Shown one piece after another: positions 3,553 to 16,692 of a stretch of 50,304 nt of DNA (the first letter of the stretch is position 1; each line of letters starts with the position of its first letter). Origin of the DNA: Thiomicrospira cyclica (GTDB taxonomy: Bacteria > Pseudomonadota > Gammaproteobacteria > Thiomicrospirales > Thiomicrospiraceae); assembly GCA_020726325.1 (NCBI GenBank), contig DYST01000003.1, forward strand, positions 1-50,304. Reading direction: 5' to 3'. The position numbers and the translations under genes were made by a program. The notes under the pieces are model-generated. The model searched no databases and was not told where the DNA came from. It was given only the letters and a program-made list of their open reading frames with translations.

Positions 3553-5820
3553 TTACAACTTAACACAGTCCACAGAATAACGCTTACTACCATCTGGCAT
3601 CTCTTCAACCGTTAGACCATGCACATCCGTGTTAAAACCTGGGAACTTCTCATTAAAGACACGCGCAAACTTGAGATAGTCTACAATGATTTTATTAAAA
3701 CGCTCACCTGGGATCAGTAGCGGAATACCCGGTGGGTAAGGCGTGACCAAGCTTGCAGTAATACGTCCCTCTAATTCATCAATCACGACACGTTCAATTT
3801 TACGATGGGTCATCATTGCAAAAGCATCCGCTGGCTTCATGGCTGCTTCCATTTCCGATAAGTACATATCTGTCGTTAAATGCGCGACATCATACTGTGC
3901 ATAGAAGCTATGGAATTGTTTACACAAATCGCGTAAGCCCACTTTTTCGTAGCGTGGATTTTTGGTAATAAATTCGGGTAAGACACGCCATAAGGGTTGG
4001 TTCTTATCAAAGTCATCTTTAAATTGCTGCAATGCAGCCATTAGGGTATTCCAGCGACCTTTGGTGATGCCGATGGTAAACATGATAAAGAAGCTGTACA
4101 AACCACATTTTTCGACGATAACACCATGCTCTGCTAAGTATTTAGTCACAATTGCAGCAGGAATACCCCACTCATCAAAATCCCCATCGACATCTAAACC
4201 GGGGGTAATAATGGTTGCTTTAATCGGGTCAAGCATATTGAAGCCATCGGCAAGATTGCCGAAACCATGCCAGCGATCGTTGGGCTTGAGTACCCAAGAA
4301 TCACGATCTTCGACGCCTTCTTGATTGCTGACATCGGGTCCCCATACTTTGAACCACCAAGAGTCGCCGTATTCTTCATCGACTTTCGCCATGGCATGAC
4401 GGAAGTTAATCGACTCTGAAATCGATTCTTCAACCAATGCCGTGCCACCTGGGGCTTCCATCATTGCTGCTGCCACATCGCAGCTGGCAATAATGGCATA
4501 CTGTGGACTGGTCGAGCTGTGCATTAAGTAAGCTTCATTGAATACTTGCAAATCAAGCTGGGTGTTTTCGGCGTTTTGTACCAAAATTTGCGAGGCTTGC
4601 GACAAACCAGCAAGTAACTTATGGGTTGATTGTGTGGCAAATACCATCGACTTTTCGGTACGTGTACCATCGCGCGAAATGGCGTGCATGCCTTTATAGA
4701 AGTCATGGAAAGTCGCGTGTGGTAGCCACGCTTCATCGAAATGCAAGGTATCAACCCAGCCATCCAAGCGTTCTTTAATCATGCCTGTATTGTAGAGAAC
4801 GCCATCGTAGGTGCTTTGGGTGATGGTCAAAATGCGCGGATCAGTTCCCAAGGTGCTGGCAATCGGATGTGCCGCAATTTTAGCCTTGATGGTATCGCGT
4901 TCGAACTCGCTGAGTGGAATTGGTCCAATAATGCCATAATGGTTACGGGTTGGTGTTAAAAATACAGGAATCGCACCTGTCATGGTAATGGCGTGCAGAA
5001 TCGACTTATGGCAGTTGCGGTCAACAATGACGATGTCGTTGTCGGCAACGCACGAGTGCCAGACCATTTTATTCGATGTCGATGTGCCATTGGTGACAAA
5101 GAACAGGTGATCGGCACTGAAAATACGCGCAGCGTTACGTTCCGATGCCGCAACAGGACCTGTGTGGTCGAGCAACTGTCCTAGCTCGTCTACCGCATTA
5201 CATACATCGGCACGTAATAGGTTTTCGCCAAAGAATTGGTGAAACATTTGCCCGACAGGTGATTTAAGAAATGCCACCCCGCCCGAATGTCCTGGGCAAT
5301 GCCACGAGTAAGAACCATCGGCAGCATAGTGCGTCAATGCACGAAAGAAAGGCGGTGCAAGACTGTCTAAGTAAGCCTTAGCTTCGCGGATGATGTAACG
5401 CGCTACAAATTCTGGCGTATCCTCAAACATATGAATAAAGCCGTTTAACTCACGCAAAATGTCATTCGGGATATGACGTGCAGTACGGGTTTCACCGTGT
5501 AAGAAAATCGGGATTTCAGCATTGCGCCAGCGGATTTCTTCAACAAAGGCGCGTAAATTCTTAATCGCTTGCGGCTCATTATTGCTACCGTCTGCATTTT
5601 GCGCAGTCGCTGTCATTTCCTCGTCATCAATCGCCAAGATAAAGGCACAAGCTCGACTTTGCTGCTGGGCAAAGGTCGATAAGTCGCCATAGCTGGTGAC
5701 ACCTAGCACTTCGATGTTTTCGGCTTGAATGGCATCGGCTAGAGCACGAATACCCAAACCAGAAGTGTTTTCAGAACGAAAGTCTTCGTCGATAATGACA
5801 ACAGGGAAACGAAAGCGCAT
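3553..5820 (-). CDS. Orn/Lys/Arg decarboxylase family protein (PLP-dependent)
   Basis: N-terminal receiver-like wing domain, PLP motif ..STHKLLAGLSQASQI.., DVHGLTVEEMPDGSKRYSVDC C-terminal region. Confidence 0.9.
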   Translation of the reverse strand: MRFRFPVVIIDEDFRSENTSGLGIRALADAIQAENIEVLGVTSYGDLSTFAQQQSRACAFILAIDDEEMTATAQNADGSNNEPQAIKNLRAFVEEIRWRNAEIPIFLHGETRTARHIPNDILRELNGFIHMFEDTPEFVARYIIREAKAYLDSLAPPFFRALTHYAADGSYSWHCPGHSGGVAFLKSPVGQMFHQFFGENLLRADVCNAVDELGQLLDHTGPVAASERNAARIFSADHLFFVTNGTSTSNKMVWHSCVADNDIVIVDRNCHKSILHAITMTGAIPVFLTPTRNHYGIIGPIPLSEFERDTIKAKIAAHPIASTLGTDPRILTITQSTYDGVLYNTGMIKERLDGWVDTLHFDEAWLPHATFHDFYKGMHAISRDGTRTEKSMVFATQSTHKLLAGLSQASQILVQNAENTQLDLQVFNEAYLMHSSTSPQYAIIASCDVAAAMMEAPGGTALVEESISESINFRHAMAKVDEEYGDSWWFKVWGPDVSNQEGVEDRDSWVLKPNDRWHGFGNLADGFNMLDPIKATIITPGLDVDGDFDEWGIPAAIVTKYLAEHGVIVEKCGLYSFFIMFTIGITKGRWNTLMAALQQFKDDFDKNQPLWRVLPEFITKNPRYEKVGLRDLCKQFHSFYAQYDVAHLTTDMYLSEMEAAMKPADAFAMMTHRKIERVVIDELEGRITASLVTPYPPGIPLLIPGERFNKIIVDYLKFARVFNEKFPGFNTDVHGLTVEEMPDGSKRYSVDCVKL

Positions 5821-5920
5821 GCGAGTGAGTCCTTGGATTCTAAAAGTGGTAAACAATATTGGCGCATTATGACATAGTTATGTGACAGTTAAAGGAATAT
5901 TTAACGTTAAGTTAACAGGT

Positions 5921-5952
5921 GCTGTAACAGTCGAATAAACAACCGTTACAGC
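5921..5952. other. Inverted repeat in the ppnP / decarboxylase intergenic region
   Basis: GCTGTAAC...GTTACAGC perfect 8 bp arms. Confidence 0.4.
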
Positions 5953-5977
5953 CCAGTCATCAATAAGCTAAACAGGA

Positions 5978-6289
5978 TTAGCCAAAATGACAAACATAGT
6001 GCACGGTTTCGCTCACTTCGATCACAAAGCTACCATTTTCAGGAACAGAAAAAGTCATCGCACCATCAATGACTTGCCAATCGCCACCATTGACCTGTAC
6101 ACGTCCTTTACCAGCCAACAATTCCATGACTTCTGGTACGCCAACATTAAATGTTAATGTTGCAGGCAAAATAACGCCAACACTTTTACGCGTACCATCG
6201 GCTAAGGTAAGGGTATGACTCACACAGTTACCATCAAAATAAACATTGGCTGTTTTGCTCACGCTGACGTTATTAAATGCTTCACTCAT
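5978..6289 (-). CDS. ppnP: Pyrimidine/purine nucleoside phosphorylase (DUF1255, YaiE)
   Basis: 103 aa; FNNVSVSKTANVYFDGNCVSHTLTLADGTRKSVGVILPA..F.V..PEVMELLAG. Confidence 0.93.
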   Translation of the reverse strand: MSEAFNNVSVSKTANVYFDGNCVSHTLTLADGTRKSVGVILPATLTFNVGVPEVMELLAGKGRVQVNGGDWQVIDGAMTFSVPENGSFVIEVSETVHYVCHFG

Positions 6290-9682: not shown

Positions 9683-9767
9683 ATTCGCGTGTAACAGTTT
9701 TTCAAGTGACGTGATAACGGTTAGAATAGCATTAAAATTCGGCTACGCATTATAAAAAGGGAAAAAA

Positions 9768-10733
9768 ATGACATTAAGCACCATCCGTCACGATTGGACA
9801 CATCAGGAAGTGGAAGCATTACTCAATCAGCCGTTCAATGATTTGATTTTTGCTGCACAGACGGTACACCGTCAACACTTTGACCCTAACTCGGTACAAA
9901 CCTCAACGCTATTGAATATCAAAACGGGCGGTTGTGCTGAAGATTGCTCTTACTGTTCGCAAAGCTCGCGTTACGATACGGGCTTAGATAAAGAGCAGAT
10001 GATGCAGCTCGATGAGGTACTGAACAAAGCAGCACAAGCAAAAACAACAGGTGCAACTCGGTTTTGTATGGGCGCGGCTTGGCGTAACCCGAATGCAAAA
10101 GATTTCGAAATGGTACTGAACATGGTGCGAGGTGTGAAAGACTTGGGCATGGAAGCCTGTTGTACACTAGGAATGCTCAATGATGAGCAAGCGGCACGTT
10201 TAAAAGAAGCGGGCTTAGATTATTACAATCATAACTTAGACACCTCAGAATCTTTTTATCCACAAGTGATTACGACACGTAGTTTTCAAGATCGCTTAGA
10301 CACCTTAGAGCGGGTACGTAATCAAGGGATGAAGGTCTGTTCTGGTGGTATTATTGGTATGGGTGAGTCGAATACAGACCGTGCGCAAATGCTGCGCACT
10401 TTTGCTAATTTGCCAGAACACCCTCATTCTGTGCCGATTAATTTGCTTGTGCCAATGGAAGGCACACCGCTTGCCGATATGCGCGGCAAAACCGATCCCT
10501 TTGACTTCATTCGTGTGATTGCCACGGCACGGATTATGATGCCTGCTTCATATGTTCGTTTATCGGCAGGTCGCAGCGAAATGACCGATGAAACACAAGC
10601 ACTCTGCTTTTTAGCAGGTGCTAACTCGATTTTCTATGGTGATAAACTACTAACAGCCGATAATCCTGACTCGCAACACGATTTAATGCTGTTTAAGCGT
10701 TTGGGCTTAACGCAAGCTACGGGTGGGTGTTAA
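9768..10733 (+). CDS. bioB: Biotin synthase
   Basis: Radical SAM CxxxCxx[21 protein letters not shown]; typical BioB throughout. Confidence 0.98.
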
Positions 10734-10762
10734 GGTTAGTTTGAAATAAAGGCTGCTAGTAA

Positions 10763-12169
10763 ATGAAACTCACTTCAATTGAAATTGTTAATTTTCGTAA
10801 ATTTGAGAAATTAACTTGTCCTCTGCATCCTAATTTAACCGTACTGACTGCTGAAAATGGTGGTGGTAAAACAACGTTATTAGATGCTATTCGTATTGCA
10901 TTGTGGCCCTTTGTGAAGGGTTTTGATCTTGGTAGTCAGGCAGGAAAGTCGGCTACTATTACTATCAACGATGTTAGACAACAGTTAAAAGGCACTGGTA
11001 ACATGGAAGTACAACTTCCTAGTGGCGTTATAGTGAAAGAAATGTGGCTAAAGCCTGATGAAGAAATACTTGTTGAACGAGTTAGAGTGAAAAAAAATAC
11101 AGGAAACTTACTTAATAATCATGCTAATGCCTTGACGAAACGGGCTAAAAAGCTGCAACAGCAAGTAAGAGATGGGATTGATAGCGTTGATTTGCCTTTA
11201 ATTAGCTATCTTGGCACGTCTCGTGTATGGTATCAGGGTCGGAATACGATTCAAGAAAAAGAATTGATTTTGAATGCTAACGACTTTTCTAGAACCTCTG
11301 CCTATTTAAATTGTTTAGCTTACAGCGCAAGTTATAAAACATTTGCTATATGGTATACCCATATTTATCAAAGTTATCGTGAATCAATGGACTTAGTGCA
11401 AGAGAAAATAGGGATGGGTTTAGCAGGAACAGTCGTTTTGGATTCATTAGGGCAAACGTTTCAAAATGCGATTCATGTGATTCAATCGAGTGTTGATTAT
11501 GTTATTAAGCCCGTAACTGGGTGGCATAAAATCGAGTATAGCGTCAGACATCAAAAGCAATTAGTCATGTCTCATGATGAACACGGCGTAATGCCAGTTG
11601 ATATGCTCAGCGATGGCTTGCGGAATGCCATTGCGTTGGTGGCAGACATCGCTTTTAGAGCTTATAAACTGAATCCGCACTTTGGTAGAGAGGCTGCTAA
11701 AAAAACATCGGGCATCGTCATGATTGATGAGGTGGATATGTTTTTGCATCCAAAGTGGCAGCAAACCATTCTTCCATCATTGCAAGAAGCTTTTCCAGAA
11801 ATTCAGTTTATTGTCACGACGCATAGCCCTCAGGTGTTAAGTACGGTAAAAAGTGAAAATATTCGTGTTATTCAAGATGGCACAGTTTTTAGTGCGCCAC
11901 AGGGCAGCGAGGGCGCAGAATCTAAACGTCTGTTGGAGCGGGTTTTTGGTACCAAGTCTCGACCTAAAAATAATGCTTGGACAAATAACTTAAAAAATTA
12001 TCGTGATTATGTTTATAACGATAAGTGGGTTAATGGTTGGTCGGATGAAATGCTACGCTTGAAAAGTGAATTACATAAGCATTTTGGCAGTGAAGATCCT
12101 GAGTTAACGGAATTGGATTTGTATCTTGAAAACCGAGAGTGGGAGTTAAGTCTTGAAAAAGATAAATAA
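10763..12169 (+). CDS. AAA/ABC-type ATPase, PtuA-like (Septu-type anti-phage candidate)
   Basis: SMC-like N-terminus IEIVNFRKFEKL, Walker A AENGGGKTTLLDA, Walker B GIVMIDEVDMFLHPKWQQ, H-loop VTTHSPQVLS; 17 bp overlap with a downstream HNH gene. Confidence 0.85.
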   Translation: MKLTSIEIVNFRKFEKLTCPLHPNLTVLTAENGGGKTTLLDAIRIALWPFVKGFDLGSQAGKSATITINDVRQQLKGTGNMEVQLPSGVIVKEMWLKPDEEILVERVRVKKNTGNLLNNHANALTKRAKKLQQQVRDGIDSVDLPLISYLGTSRVWYQGRNTIQEKELILNANDFSRTSAYLNCLAYSASYKTFAIWYTHIYQSYRESMDLVQEKIGMGLAGTVVLDSLGQTFQNAIHVIQSSVDYVIKPVTGWHKIEYSVRHQKQLVMSHDEHGVMPVDMLSDGLRNAIALVADIAFRAYKLNPHFGREAAKKTSGIVMIDEVDMFLHPKWQQTILPSLQEAFPEIQFIVTTHSPQVLSTVKSENIRVIQDGTVFSAPQGSEGAESKRLLERVFGTKSRPKNNAWTNNLKNYRDYVYNDKWVNGWSDEMLRLKSELHKHFGSEDPELTELDLYLENREWELSLEKDK

Positions 12170-12926
12170 AACTCAAGGTCAAGATAAATTAACGCCTTAT
12201 GCCCTCGTTAATCAGATGAATAGCTGGAAAAGTTTTAAAGGCAATAAGCCTGATGATGCGCGTGCTGATAAAAATCTTATGTTGCAAGATCAAGAAGGTT
12301 TGTGTGCTTATTGTGAGGCTAACATCGGCGATTTAGACCCTTATCAGCAATCAGTCGAGCACTTTCATGATAAATCGGACGATTCTAATCTATTGAATCA
12401 TAATTGGGGGCTAGACTGGCAAAATGTGTTTGCTGTTTGCAAAGGGGGAGAGACAGAGGGCGCAACCTACCCCACGCCTGATAATTTAAGTTGTGATAGA
12501 CACAAAGAGTATAGAAAGGATATTCCAGCTGCGTGTGAGGGTTATTTGCTCAATCCGCTCGATATAATCGCAAGTCCTGCTCTGTTTGAGTTTAATAAAG
12601 CAACGCTTCATTTGAAGCCTAATCTAGTAGCTTGTCAATCATTTACACCAATCCATAATCACCATTCAACTGTTGAAGAGCTAGTTCAAAACACAATCGA
12701 TATTTTGAATTTGAATTGTCAACGCTTAATTGATAGTAGACAGCAAGTATTAAACGCTTACAATAAAGAAATCGAAAAAATGCGACTTGTTAATAATCAA
12801 AATGGTCCTGCTCAGCTTGCACAGCACTGGTTTGGTAACAAGTGGCCTAGCTTTTTCACGACAAGACGCAGCTTATTAGGACAGCATGCAGAAGATTATT
12901 TACAAATAATTCAATACAATGGATAA
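12153..12926 (+). CDS. HNH endonuclease, PtuB-like / TIGR02646-like
   Basis: CAYCE..QQSVEHFHDKSD..N.NWGLDWQNVFAVCKGG...CDRHKE zinc-ribbon/HNH pattern; paired with the ATPase. Confidence 0.82.
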   Translation: MKKINKTQGQDKLTPYALVNQMNSWKSFKGNKPDDARADKNLMLQDQEGLCAYCEANIGDLDPYQQSVEHFHDKSDDSNLLNHNWGLDWQNVFAVCKGGETEGATYPTPDNLSCDRHKEYRKDIPAACEGYLLNPLDIIASPALFEFNKATLHLKPNLVACQSFTPIHNHHSTVEELVQNTIDILNLNCQRLIDSRQQVLNAYNKEIEKMRLVNNQNGPAQLAQHWFGNKWPSFFTTRRSLLGQHAEDYLQIIQYNG

Positions 12927-12930
12927 GTTG

Positions 12931-14127
12931 ATGCACAACCACACTTGGCAAACCCGTCTTACCCAACGCTTAAGTAATCAGCGTGAAGCTGGCTTATGGC
13001 GTGATCGCCCCCTAATGACCAGTGCGCCAGCAGCGCGAGTTCAGGTCAATGGGAAATGGTTAATTAGCTTTGCTAGTAACGATTATTTAGGTCTCGCTGC
13101 CGATGCAAGTCTTGCTGCAGAGGCTCTTGCCCTCAATGCCGATGCTGGTCTGGGTGGCAGTAGTGCCTCTCATGTTTTGGCTGGGCATCATTTGCCGCAT
13201 CATTTGCTCGAAGATGAGCTGGCGGATTGGTTAGGGGTCGAGCGCGTCCTCTTATTTTCTAGTGGTTATCTTGCTAATTTAGCGGTACAAACTGCTTTTA
13301 TGCAGCAAGGCGATAGACTCATTCACGATAAGCTCAATCATGCCTCGTTGATTGATGGTGCTTTGTTGTCGGGGGTGAACTTTAAGCGTTATCCGCACAA
13401 TAATATGGCTGCTTTAGCACGACGCTTGCTACAGCCTAATGCTTGCTTAACCATGGTGGTGACAGACGGCGTGTTCAGCATGGACGGCGATGTGGTCAAT
13501 TTACCCGCAATGCTCGATGCCTTGGCGGATAAAGACGTGTTGCTGGTGGTCGATGAAGCGCATAGCTTCGGTGTTTTGGGTGAGCAAGGGCGAGGGTCTT
13601 TTTCTCATTTTAAGCGCAAAGCAAAGCCTAATGTTTTGCGTGTTGGTACTTTGGGCAAAGCCTTCGGTAGTAGCGGTGCATTTGTGGCAGGTTCTGGTTT
13701 ATTGATCGATACCATTGCTCAGTTTGCACGTAGTTATCGTTATACAACGGCGCAACCCCCTTACCAAGCAAGTTTTACCCGTGCGGCTTTACGTCGGGTA
13801 CAACAAGGCGATCATTTGCGTGCGCACCTTAATCGACTGATTACTCATTTTCGGGCGGGTGCAAAGGCTCTAGGGTTGACGCTAATGCCCTCGTTGACAC
13901 CCATTCAGCCTATTTTGCTTAATGACAATGCACGTGCGATGCGTTGGCAGCAGCAGCTTTGGGATGCAGGGTTTTGGCTTCCTGCCATTCGCCCACCGAC
14001 AGTACCAGAGGGCACGGCACGCTTACGCTTGTCGATTTGTGCCAATCATACCATTGAGCAGATAGAGCAATTATTACTTGAGCTTCAGAAATGTCAAATA
14101 AAGGATGGTTATGGCATTAATCACTGA
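12931..14127 (+). CDS. bioF: 8-amino-7-oxononanoate synthase
   Basis: PLP enzyme; SNDYLGLAAD, DGVFSMDGD, VDEAHSFGVLGEQGRG, GTLGKAFGSSGAF; an alternative ATG at 12919 overlaps the HNH gene. Confidence 0.97.
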   Translation: MHNHTWQTRLTQRLSNQREAGLWRDRPLMTSAPAARVQVNGKWLISFASNDYLGLAADASLAAEALALNADAGLGGSSASHVLAGHHLPHHLLEDELADWLGVERVLLFSSGYLANLAVQTAFMQQGDRLIHDKLNHASLIDGALLSGVNFKRYPHNNMAALARRLLQPNACLTMVVTDGVFSMDGDVVNLPAMLDALADKDVLLVVDEAHSFGVLGEQGRGSFSHFKRKAKPNVLRVGTLGKAFGSSGAFVAGSGLLIDTIAQFARSYRYTTAQPPYQASFTRAALRRVQQGDHLRAHLNRLITHFRAGAKALGLTLMPSLTPIQPILLNDNARAMRWQQQLWDAGFWLPAIRPPTVPEGTARLRLSICANHTIEQIEQLLLELQKCQIKDGYGINH

Positions 14128-14893
14128 AAGTTGGGGAGAGGGTCCCGATTTAGTCTTTATTCATGGGTGGCGAGCACATTCAGCATTGTGGCGCATGTGG
14201 ATTCAGCAGCACTTTTTAGGGTATCGCATCACCCTAATCGATTTGCCGGGACATGGTAATAGTGCACCGATTCAAAGAACCGATGCCCCCTTAATGGATG
14301 ATTGGATTGGGGCACTGGTTGAAGTCTTGCCCGAGCATGCAATCATTGCTGGTTGGTCGTTGGGTGGTTTATTGGCGCAGCAGTTAGCGATCAGTCATCC
14401 GCAACGGGTGCGAGCACTGATTTTAATTGCCGCTAGCCCCTGTTTTGTGCAACGGGAGGATTGGAAACCTGCTTTATCTCGTCCCCTGATTCATCAGTAT
14501 ATTCAAGAAGTATCGAATAATGCAGTTACCTTGTTTAAGTCTTTTTTTATGTTGCAGTCATTAGGTAGTCCTAACCCAAAAAGACTATATCAACAGCTGA
14601 TTGCCAGTCTGATGGTATTGGCTACCGATATTCCATCGCTTAAGCAAGGGTTGCAATTATTAGAAGATATTGACTTGCGCCCAACCTTAACACAGATTCA
14701 ACAGCCCTCTTTATGGTTATTTGCAGAAAAAGATGCCATTGTTCCGATTGCTCTTTCACAAGAGATAGCAACTTTCTTGCCAGACTCACACTGTAAACAT
14801 TTACCGAATTGCGGACATTTACCTTTTATGACCTGTCCCGATGGTTTAGCAGTGACTATCCAATCTTTCTTAGATGAACTTGCCAATGATTGA
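14111..14893 (+). CDS. bioH: Pimeloyl-ACP methyl ester carboxylesterase
   Basis: Alpha/beta hydrolase; IHGW, GWSLGGLLAQQLA nucleophile elbow, NCGHLPF; bio operon position. Confidence 0.95.
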   Translation: MALITESWGEGPDLVFIHGWRAHSALWRMWIQQHFLGYRITLIDLPGHGNSAPIQRTDAPLMDDWIGALVEVLPEHAIIAGWSLGGLLAQQLAISHPQRVRALILIAASPCFVQREDWKPALSRPLIHQYIQEVSNNAVTLFKSFFMLQSLGSPNPKRLYQQLIASLMVLATDIPSLKQGLQLLEDIDLRPTLTQIQQPSLWLFAEKDAIVPIALSQEIATFLPDSHCKHLPNCGHLPFMTCPDGLAVTIQSFLDELAND

Positions 14894-15797
14894 TCGTCAT
14901 GCGGTTCGTCGTCATTTTAGTCGTGCCTGCGCTTCTTACGATGCGGCTGCAATTTTGCAAAAAGAAGTCGCGAATCGATTAGCAGAACGCTTACCGCTGC
15001 TTAAAATCAAGCCGAGCCGTATTGTCGATTTAGGTGCGGGAACGGGCTTTTTATCACAACATATTCAAGCACACTATCCACAAGCACAGCTGTTAGCCGT
15101 CGATTTATCCGAGCAGATGCTAACTCAGTACCGTCATAACCTCAAATTACAACTGCGTTGGTGGCAAAAAATCAATCCTTTTGCACGAGCAAAAGATATT
15201 CATACCCTTGCAGCCGATGCCTATCAGTTACCTTTGAGCGACGCGAGTGTTGATATGCTCGTTTCAAGTTTGATGTTGCAATGGTGCGACGACTTACCCG
15301 CTGTCTTAGCAGAATGCCGCCGTGTGCTCAAACCTGATGGTGTCTTTTTTATTGCTAGTCTAGGACCAGATACTCTAAAAGAGATTCGTAATGCGTGGCA
15401 GACAGTAGACGGACATTCAGAGCAACATTTGCTGAACTTTGCTGATATTCATGATTTAGGTGATGCGGTATCACGTTCAGGTTTTGCTGACCCTGTACTC
15501 GATGTCGAACGGATTACCCTCACCTACGCCACACCAGGTGCCGCACTCGATGACTTAAAAAGCATCGGGGCAACCAATGCGAATAAAGGGCGTAGTATAG
15601 GCTTAATGGGCAAAGGCAGATGGACAAGATTTTTGCAGGCTTACCAAGCACAAGCACTGCCTGATGGGCGCATTCCTGCTACTTTTGAGATCGTTTACGC
15701 CCATGCCTTTGCAGGACAATTGCCACAGCCTCAGTCATTAGATGGGGTTGTTAGTGTACCGATTACTCAAATTAAGCGTTGGTTGCCAGTATCGTAA
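14886..15797 (+). CDS. bioC: Malonyl-ACP O-methyltransferase
   Basis: SAM motif VDLGAGTGFLSQHI; FSRACASYDAAAILQKEVANRL typical BioC N-terminus. Confidence 0.96.
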   Translation: MIDRHAVRRHFSRACASYDAAAILQKEVANRLAERLPLLKIKPSRIVDLGAGTGFLSQHIQAHYPQAQLLAVDLSEQMLTQYRHNLKLQLRWWQKINPFARAKDIHTLAADAYQLPLSDASVDMLVSSLMLQWCDDLPAVLAECRRVLKPDGVFFIASLGPDTLKEIRNAWQTVDGHSEQHLLNFADIHDLGDAVSRSGFADPVLDVERITLTYATPGAALDDLKSIGATNANKGRSIGLMGKGRWTRFLQAYQAQALPDGRIPATFEIVYAHAFAGQLPQPQSLDGVVSVPITQIKRWLPVS

Positions 15798-15962: not shown

Positions 15963-16135
15963 ATAGCGACGTACTTCGCAATGATGCTGTTTTTATAGCT
16001 ATTTTTGGTGAGAATGGCTTAATAGACATGGATGATAAAGCCTTCGCAGAATATCTCAAACCCAAAAATAATGACTTAAAAATTGAATCATTAGATTGGG
16101 ACTGGGCAAAAAAACAAGTTGGCATCACTGCATAA
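15959..16135 (+). CDS. Small ORF 2 of an overlapping three-ORF module, unknown function
   Basis: VNSDVLRNDAVFIAIFGENGLIDMDDKAFAEYLKPKNNDLKIESLDWDWAKKQVGITA*; GGAAGGAAA upstream; TAATG overlap with the next ORF. Confidence 0.5.
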   Translation: MNSDVLRNDAVFIAIFGENGLIDMDDKAFAEYLKPKNNDLKIESLDWDWAKKQVGITA

Positions 16136-16692
16136 TGCGATTCCCTGACGATCTAATCGAGATTCTTGAGAAAAAATTCCTAGGATTTGATGCTGACTTT
16201 TCTGGTAACTGGAAAGAGATTCTTAAACAAGAATACGCATGGCATAAGATCAAAATTAAGACTGATATGGGTATTATCCATTCTGATGACGATCGCATGG
16301 ATCGGCATAAGGTTGCAGCAGCTATAACGCTATCGATTCTAACAGCGGAGCCGTTAGTAAACTGCACAGAATCTAAAAAACCTGTTGATCGATTGTCTAA
16401 TGAGTTTTTTGCGCTTTATGGCGCAATGATTGTCATGGTTTTATTTATGCGAAAAGATGGGCTTTTACAAACCCATCTTAGTCTTGAACAAGCTATCGCA
16501 AACCTGCTCAAGGTTAGTACAACGAACCATCTAGGTACTTACCCAGAGCAACTGCTGAAAGCATTCCGTGAAACGATCGACTTAAAGCATGCACACACAA
16601 TTTCGTACAAACCATTTGCTCACATTTACTTTCTGCTTGAAGTGCATCATCAATGCCGCTCATCGCTGAAAGCAACGCCAGAGAACGGATAA
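16135..16692 (+). CDS. Hypothetical protein, ORF 3 of the three-ORF module
   Basis: 185 aa from the ATG in the TAATG overlap: MRFPDDLIEILEKKFLGFDADFSGNWKEILKQEYAWHKIKIKTDMG...DRMDRHKVAAAITLSIL. Confidence 0.65.
   Translation: MRFPDDLIEILEKKFLGFDADFSGNWKEILKQEYAWHKIKIKTDMGIIHSDDDRMDRHKVAAAITLSILTAEPLVNCTESKKPVDRLSNEFFALYGAMIVMVLFMRKDGLLQTHLSLEQAIANLLKVSTTNHLGTYPEQLLKAFRETIDLKHAHTISYKPFAHIYFLLEVHHQCRSSLKATPENG

Follow-up and report, generated by a model that had tools for sequence, protein, structure and literature searches.

A predicted stand-alone Septu pair inserted between bioB and bioF in the biotin operon of Thiomicrospira cyclica

The biotin operon of Thiomicrospira cyclica carries a gene for an ABC/SMC-type ATPase (ptuA) and a gene for an HNH endonuclease (ptuB), and in the window (the whole 50,304-nucleotide stretch of DNA that was analyzed) this insertion falls nearly precisely at the boundary of the bioB and bioF coding regions. 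From the sequence, we consider it likely that the pair is a stand-alone Septu system that was acquired horizontally, inserted between bioB and bioF, and is most likely co-transcribed from the bioB promoter. Most descriptions of defense genes place them in islands or on mobile elements. In this case, the complete system of two genes is fitted flush into a compact operon for vitamin synthesis, and no mobile element was recognized next to it. The family itself is already known, and the placement is the interesting part: the Septu system itself is ordinary, but its location is unusual and informative. The features of the locus are collected in Table 1.

Table 1 Features of the window locus and of the inserts in the biotin operon of a related genome (G006)
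Feature	Position	Strand	Basis
comF	window, upstream of bioB	−	
Candidate bioB promoter, TTTTCA-17-TAGAAT	9699-9727	+	consensus match only
bioB, biotin synthase; first operon gene, upstream neighbor of the insert	9768-10733	+	TIGR00433, 411 bits, above cut-off
bioB/ptuA spacer, 29 bp, with AAAGG before the ptuA ATG	10734-10762	+	sequence
ptuA, ABC/SMC-type ATPase, 468 aa	10763-12169	+	PADLOC PDLC00310, PDB 8ee4, alignment motifs
ptuB, HNH endonuclease, 257 aa, TTG start	12153-12926	+	PADLOC PDLC00338, TIGR02646, PDB 9e8z, alignment
bioF	12919 or (more likely) 12931 to 14127	+	TIGR00858, 415.5 bits, just below cut-off 426.45
bioH, overlaps bioF	14105-14893	+	TIGR01738, 197.5 bits, just below cut-off 206.95
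bioC, overlaps bioH	14874-15797	+	TIGR02072, 225 bits, above cut-off
G006 inserts	L104, 4117-4655 and 6691-7213		

In the profile searches, PtuA matched the PADLOC model PDLC00310 end to end (1e-143; residues 1-465 to profile positions 1-441 of 443), and PtuB matched PDLC00338 in the same manner (7.4e-88; residues 1-257 to profile positions 1-261 of 261). PtuB also scored 68.9 bits against TIGR02646, above the cut-off of 52.15. These results supported the initial annotation, which had described the pair as Septu/PtuAB-like (PtuA/PtuB, TIGR02646) and had proposed an HMM search as the check. Both proteins fell below the NCBIfam equivalog cut-offs of NF041760 and NF041761 (270 of 500 bits and 129.9 of 150 bits), the retron-type PtuA and PtuB equivalogs built for retron Ec78. 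The solved structure closest to PtuA was the PtuA of PDB 8ee4 (1.7e-96, compared with 7.5e-49 for Ec83). The closest PDB match to PtuB was the HNH protein of retron Ec83 (9e8z, 9.7e-29), and no 8ee4-series chain was found among the PDB matches of PtuB at E values up to 10. In the alignments, the motifs of PtuA were intact (Walker A K36, signature SDG 283-285, Walker B D322-E323, and H-loop H354), and H70, N91, and H117 of PtuB were conserved; PtuB also has the cysteines C51, C54, C96, and C114. Compared with 9e8z, chain 9o4a has His changed to Ala at the position aligned with PtuB H70. The AlphaFold model of PtuB (mean pLDDT 49) was too poor for a fold search. Matches to both profiles, the adjacency of ptuA and then ptuB, and intact catalytic motifs, as expected of a stand-alone Septu system, were all found. 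Because no reverse transcriptase (RVT_1) was found in the source genome, which is 81% complete, the pair is classified on its sequence as an intact stand-alone Septu and not as a retron.

The synteny of bioB and bioF in relatives, which the initial annotation had suggested comparing, defined an empty site. In all three congeners, in which BioB is 86-89% identical (n = 3), bioB and bioF are separated by 6-9 bp and ptuAB is missing; the pair is thus inserted inside the biotin operon, as had been proposed, and the case in which all relatives share the same arrangement does not hold. A close match to PtuB was present in one of the 57 genomes searched, namely the source genome, and absent from the other 56. 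With the best PtuB model, weaker matches were obtained in five other genomes of the family, and at 1e-25, the source genome was the only one matched among 369 genomes of the class. The insert has a GC content of 38.7%, compared with 44.3% (sd 1.9) for equal-sized segments of the window, and is lower in GC than 99.4% of these segments. We infer that ptuAB was gained horizontally. The surrounding contig is core chromosome, with murJ, tatB/tatC, a sigma-70-family factor, a molybdopterin oxidoreductase set, ribosomal proteins, and secY. Among the proteins examined, none was recognized as an integrase or transposase, and no direct repeats above chance flank the pair. The search for mobile carriers gave no match in phages or IMG/VR and three distant matches on Acinetobacter plasmids (27% identity).

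Two other assignments were rejected. Native membership of ptuAB in the biotin operon does not agree with its absence from the three congeners and the rest of the bio operons surveyed. The 29.8-50 kb part of the window was likewise not accepted as an integron array or prophage, the genes there being ribosomal protein, secY, ThiF-like, and chemotaxis genes. After bioC, at 16096-16692, the window contains a 198-aa ORF with no match in Pfam, NCBIfam, or PADLOC.

Several readings of the pair other than a stand-alone Septu system were weighed. The pair resembles the type I-A retron-Septu systems (Ec83 and Ec78/Eco7) in its PtuB and in its TIGR02646 family, the nearest PDB entry of PtuB is a retron protein, and the PADLOC retron I-A models also matched at lower rank. 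It could thus be a retron effector module that has lost its reverse transcriptase or is served by one encoded elsewhere, but we regard this as very unlikely, given that the RVT_1 search of the 81% complete genome was negative, the upstream neighbor is bioB, and PtuA is far nearer to the 8ee4 PtuA than to that of Ec83. Furthermore, no Rfam match was obtained near the locus, where the neighbors are bioB and bioF, no msr/msd was found, and the window PtuA has 468 aa, whereas most retron-like entries have 542-552 aa. Type I-A membership was rejected on the negative RVT_1 search of the 81% complete genome, the negative Rfam search near the locus, and the missed equivalog cut-offs. A housekeeping or repair role in DNA metabolism, rather than in defense, would fit an ATPase domain that is common to RecF, SMC, and OLD proteins. 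However, the matches to RecF, SMC, and OLD were weak and partial, and the pair is sporadic and missing in the congeners, a pattern expected of defense genes; we therefore give this role little credence. It is extremely improbable that the arrangement is an assembly or binning artifact. The 110 contigs and the incomplete genome fit a fragmented metagenome-derived bin, and the composition of the pair deviates, but bioB and bioF stand in native order and orientation on either side, the insert meets its neighbors flush at start and stop codons, contamination amounts to 0.38%, and bioB is single copy. Chance was excluded because the HMM matches run end to end and the empty site is found in all three congeners.

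At the junctions, the 3′ end of ptuA and the 5′ end of ptuB overlap by 17 bp on the same strand. An ATG of bioF at 12919 overlaps the ptuB stop, and an alternative ATG at 12931 lies 4 bp past it; whichever start is chosen, the ptuB/bioF junction is flush to within ~10 bp. The 29-bp gap, the 17-bp overlap, and the ATG over the ptuB stop reported in the initial annotation were all reproduced, but its choice of 12919 as the bioF start is less well placed, since the N-termini of BioF in congeners (MTHAWTQRL, MSLRWQQRL) favor 12931. The relative of the pair in Aeromonas simiae (L007; ptuA 4704-6017, ptuB from 6001) shares both the TTG start and the 17-bp overlap. Because they recur there, these features were taken as a trait of the PtuAB lineage and not as a mis-call. 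Judged by eye, the A. simiae ptuAB stands directly after hsdS/hsdR-like type I restriction genes (L007, 44-6738). The relative in Providencia alcalifaciens (L008, 4618-6795) looks broken, with ptuA split over two frames and a stop inside the stretch of ptuB that was read; a sequencing error is possible.

The expression of the pair was assessed from the anatomy of the locus. The promoter scan found no + strand consensus site from 10230 up to the start of ptuA, and a full promoter would not fit into the 29-bp spacer. In congeners, the region ahead of bioB that includes the candidate −10 element (TAGAAT) is conserved. Before the insertion, bioB, bioF, bioH, and bioC would have formed a tight operon, and read-through across the insert would still be required. 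Translation of ptuB would be coupled to that of ptuA through their overlap, and bioF translation would probably start at or just past the ptuB stop. The likeliest arrangement is one message from the bioB promoter that covers bioB-ptuA-ptuB-bioF-bioH-bioC, and co-transcription is the most economical reading because of the 29-bp spacer, the lack of a + strand consensus promoter from 10230, and the overlapping bioF, bioH, and bioC, which need read-through. Thus, the proposal of co-transcription, with possible translational coupling, agrees with the anatomy (the promoter scan, the flush junctions, and the downstream read-through), which is the evidence that bears on it. Alternatively, the pair may use its own promoter inside bioB or inside the insert, perhaps one of a non-consensus kind, and its place in the biotin operon would then have no regulatory meaning. 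The consensus scan gave a weak site at 10200-10229 and further sites inside ptuA and ptuB, and some toxin-antitoxin inserts of the family keep promoter-like sequence, such as the bioB/mazE spacer of ~140 bp in L103 and the bioH/brnT spacer in L104, which has an inverted repeat with TATAAT. However, the 13 promoter-like sites were not clearly above the 9.0 (sd 3.1) of shuffled sequences, the spacer is just 29 bp, and read-through would still be required for bioF, bioH, and bioC; we consider a promoter of its own unlikely. If co-transcription holds, ptuAB expression probably always accompanies that of the biotin genes. Control of ptuAB by biotin is speculation.

By analogy with characterized relatives, PtuA is expected to assemble into an ATP-dependent oligomer in which PtuB is held and gated, and PtuB would cleave nucleic acid on phage infection. 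The gating and the target are taken from these relatives, and the target may be either DNA or tRNA. In one E. coli Septu system, a 6:2 PtuA-PtuB complex degrades phage DNA (review, PMC12948488), whereas Septu EcB88 of E. coli (PMC13096335) and retron-Eco7 (PMC11555353) cleave tRNA-Tyr. According to the citation in PMC12948488, the complex of PDB 8ee4 was published in Nat Struct Mol Biol 2024. The window pair resembles the E. coli Septu systems (8ee4 and EcB88) in the order of ATPase and then HNH, in having no reverse transcriptase, and in the conserved ATPase and HNH motifs, but it differs from them in an HNH protein nearest to retron Ec83 and not to the 8ee4 series, and in being embedded in a biosynthetic operon.

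A second PtuAB-like pair is present in the same genome, in another housekeeping operon. On contig C76 (G000; L046 703-4631, L259 5286-6290), an MTase_II-like gene, a PtuA-like ATPase gene, and a PtuB-like HNH gene lie between amgK and murU, which overlap by 4 bp in two congeners (G001 and G002). A perfect 27-bp direct repeat brackets the ATPase-HNH pair; one copy forms the 3′ end of the MTase gene, and the other lies 2 bp before the murU start. When the flanks were joined in silico, the MTase ended in LKS, with its TGA overlapping the murU GTG by 4 bp. Similar C-terminal ends, LGFLK or LGFLR, were seen in the MTase relatives examined. Two plasmid copies of the MTase have no annotated ATPase-HNH pair after them, and one relative from a genome ends in LGFLRES, with a flank too short to judge what follows. 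Drawn from this one genome, the simplest history has the MTase gene entering amgK/murU first and the two genes inserting afterward, with a duplication of 27 bp. Judging from the perfect repeat on its flanks, a PtuAB-like pair is apparently able to move with its two genes as one unit.

Restriction-modification genes can insert with long target duplication. The term "long target duplication" occurs in PMC3874152 and PMC3031569. The second pair is similar to such inserts in its 27-bp repeat, whereas the window pair has no recognizable repeat. More broadly, PtuAB-like pairs could be minimal mobile units that duplicate a few tens of bases on insertion, land exactly at coupled gene junctions in housekeeping operons, and take over the host promoter and translation. 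They would be protected from loss, since clean removal must restore an essential operon; bioB/bioF would be a favored slot in the family, and defense output would follow biotin demand. We regard this general scheme as distinctly doubtful. The second pair keeps the apparent direct-repeat scar of a two-gene insertion. Together, the two pairs make it possible to test by what means Septu-like pairs move when no recombinase is evident, and whether housekeeping-operon lock-in alters defense expression and retention.

Defensive or toxic cassettes were found at bioB/bioF in 3 of the 53 pairs read in the family (the source genome, G078, and G006), the latter two carriers belonging to other genera of the family and carrying toxin-antitoxin modules. 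G078 has MazE-MazF between bioB and bioF (L103, C23; 2318-2923). In G006 (L104, C39), an addiction-module antitoxin (PF09720) and a ParE-like toxin just below its cut-off lie at bioB/bioF, and a BrnT-CopG antitoxin pair lies at bioH/bioC. No recognized defense or toxin-antitoxin insert was found at bioB/bioF in 75 further pairs, nearly all from other families, and the family's trp and leu loci that could be read, a few of them mis-oriented, likewise showed none. The hotspot contrasts were not significant (Fisher p 0.07 and 0.15; the 108 control junctions of the second test are a rounded count). For this reason, a hotspot at bioB/bioF is not claimed, and the data are only suggestive of one. Among the papers searched, nothing relevant was found on defense or toxin-antitoxin genes inside a biotin operon.

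Other insertions were observed at biotin operon junctions. Repeat-like, apparently non-genic inserts of 260-880 bp occur in L090 (4526-4787) and downstream of bioB in L229, L240, and L248. In many genomes of genus g2, bioF and bioH are ~3-3.6 kb apart, and in the two of these gaps that were read (L056 and L079), the interval holds one gene of ~940-1000 codons.
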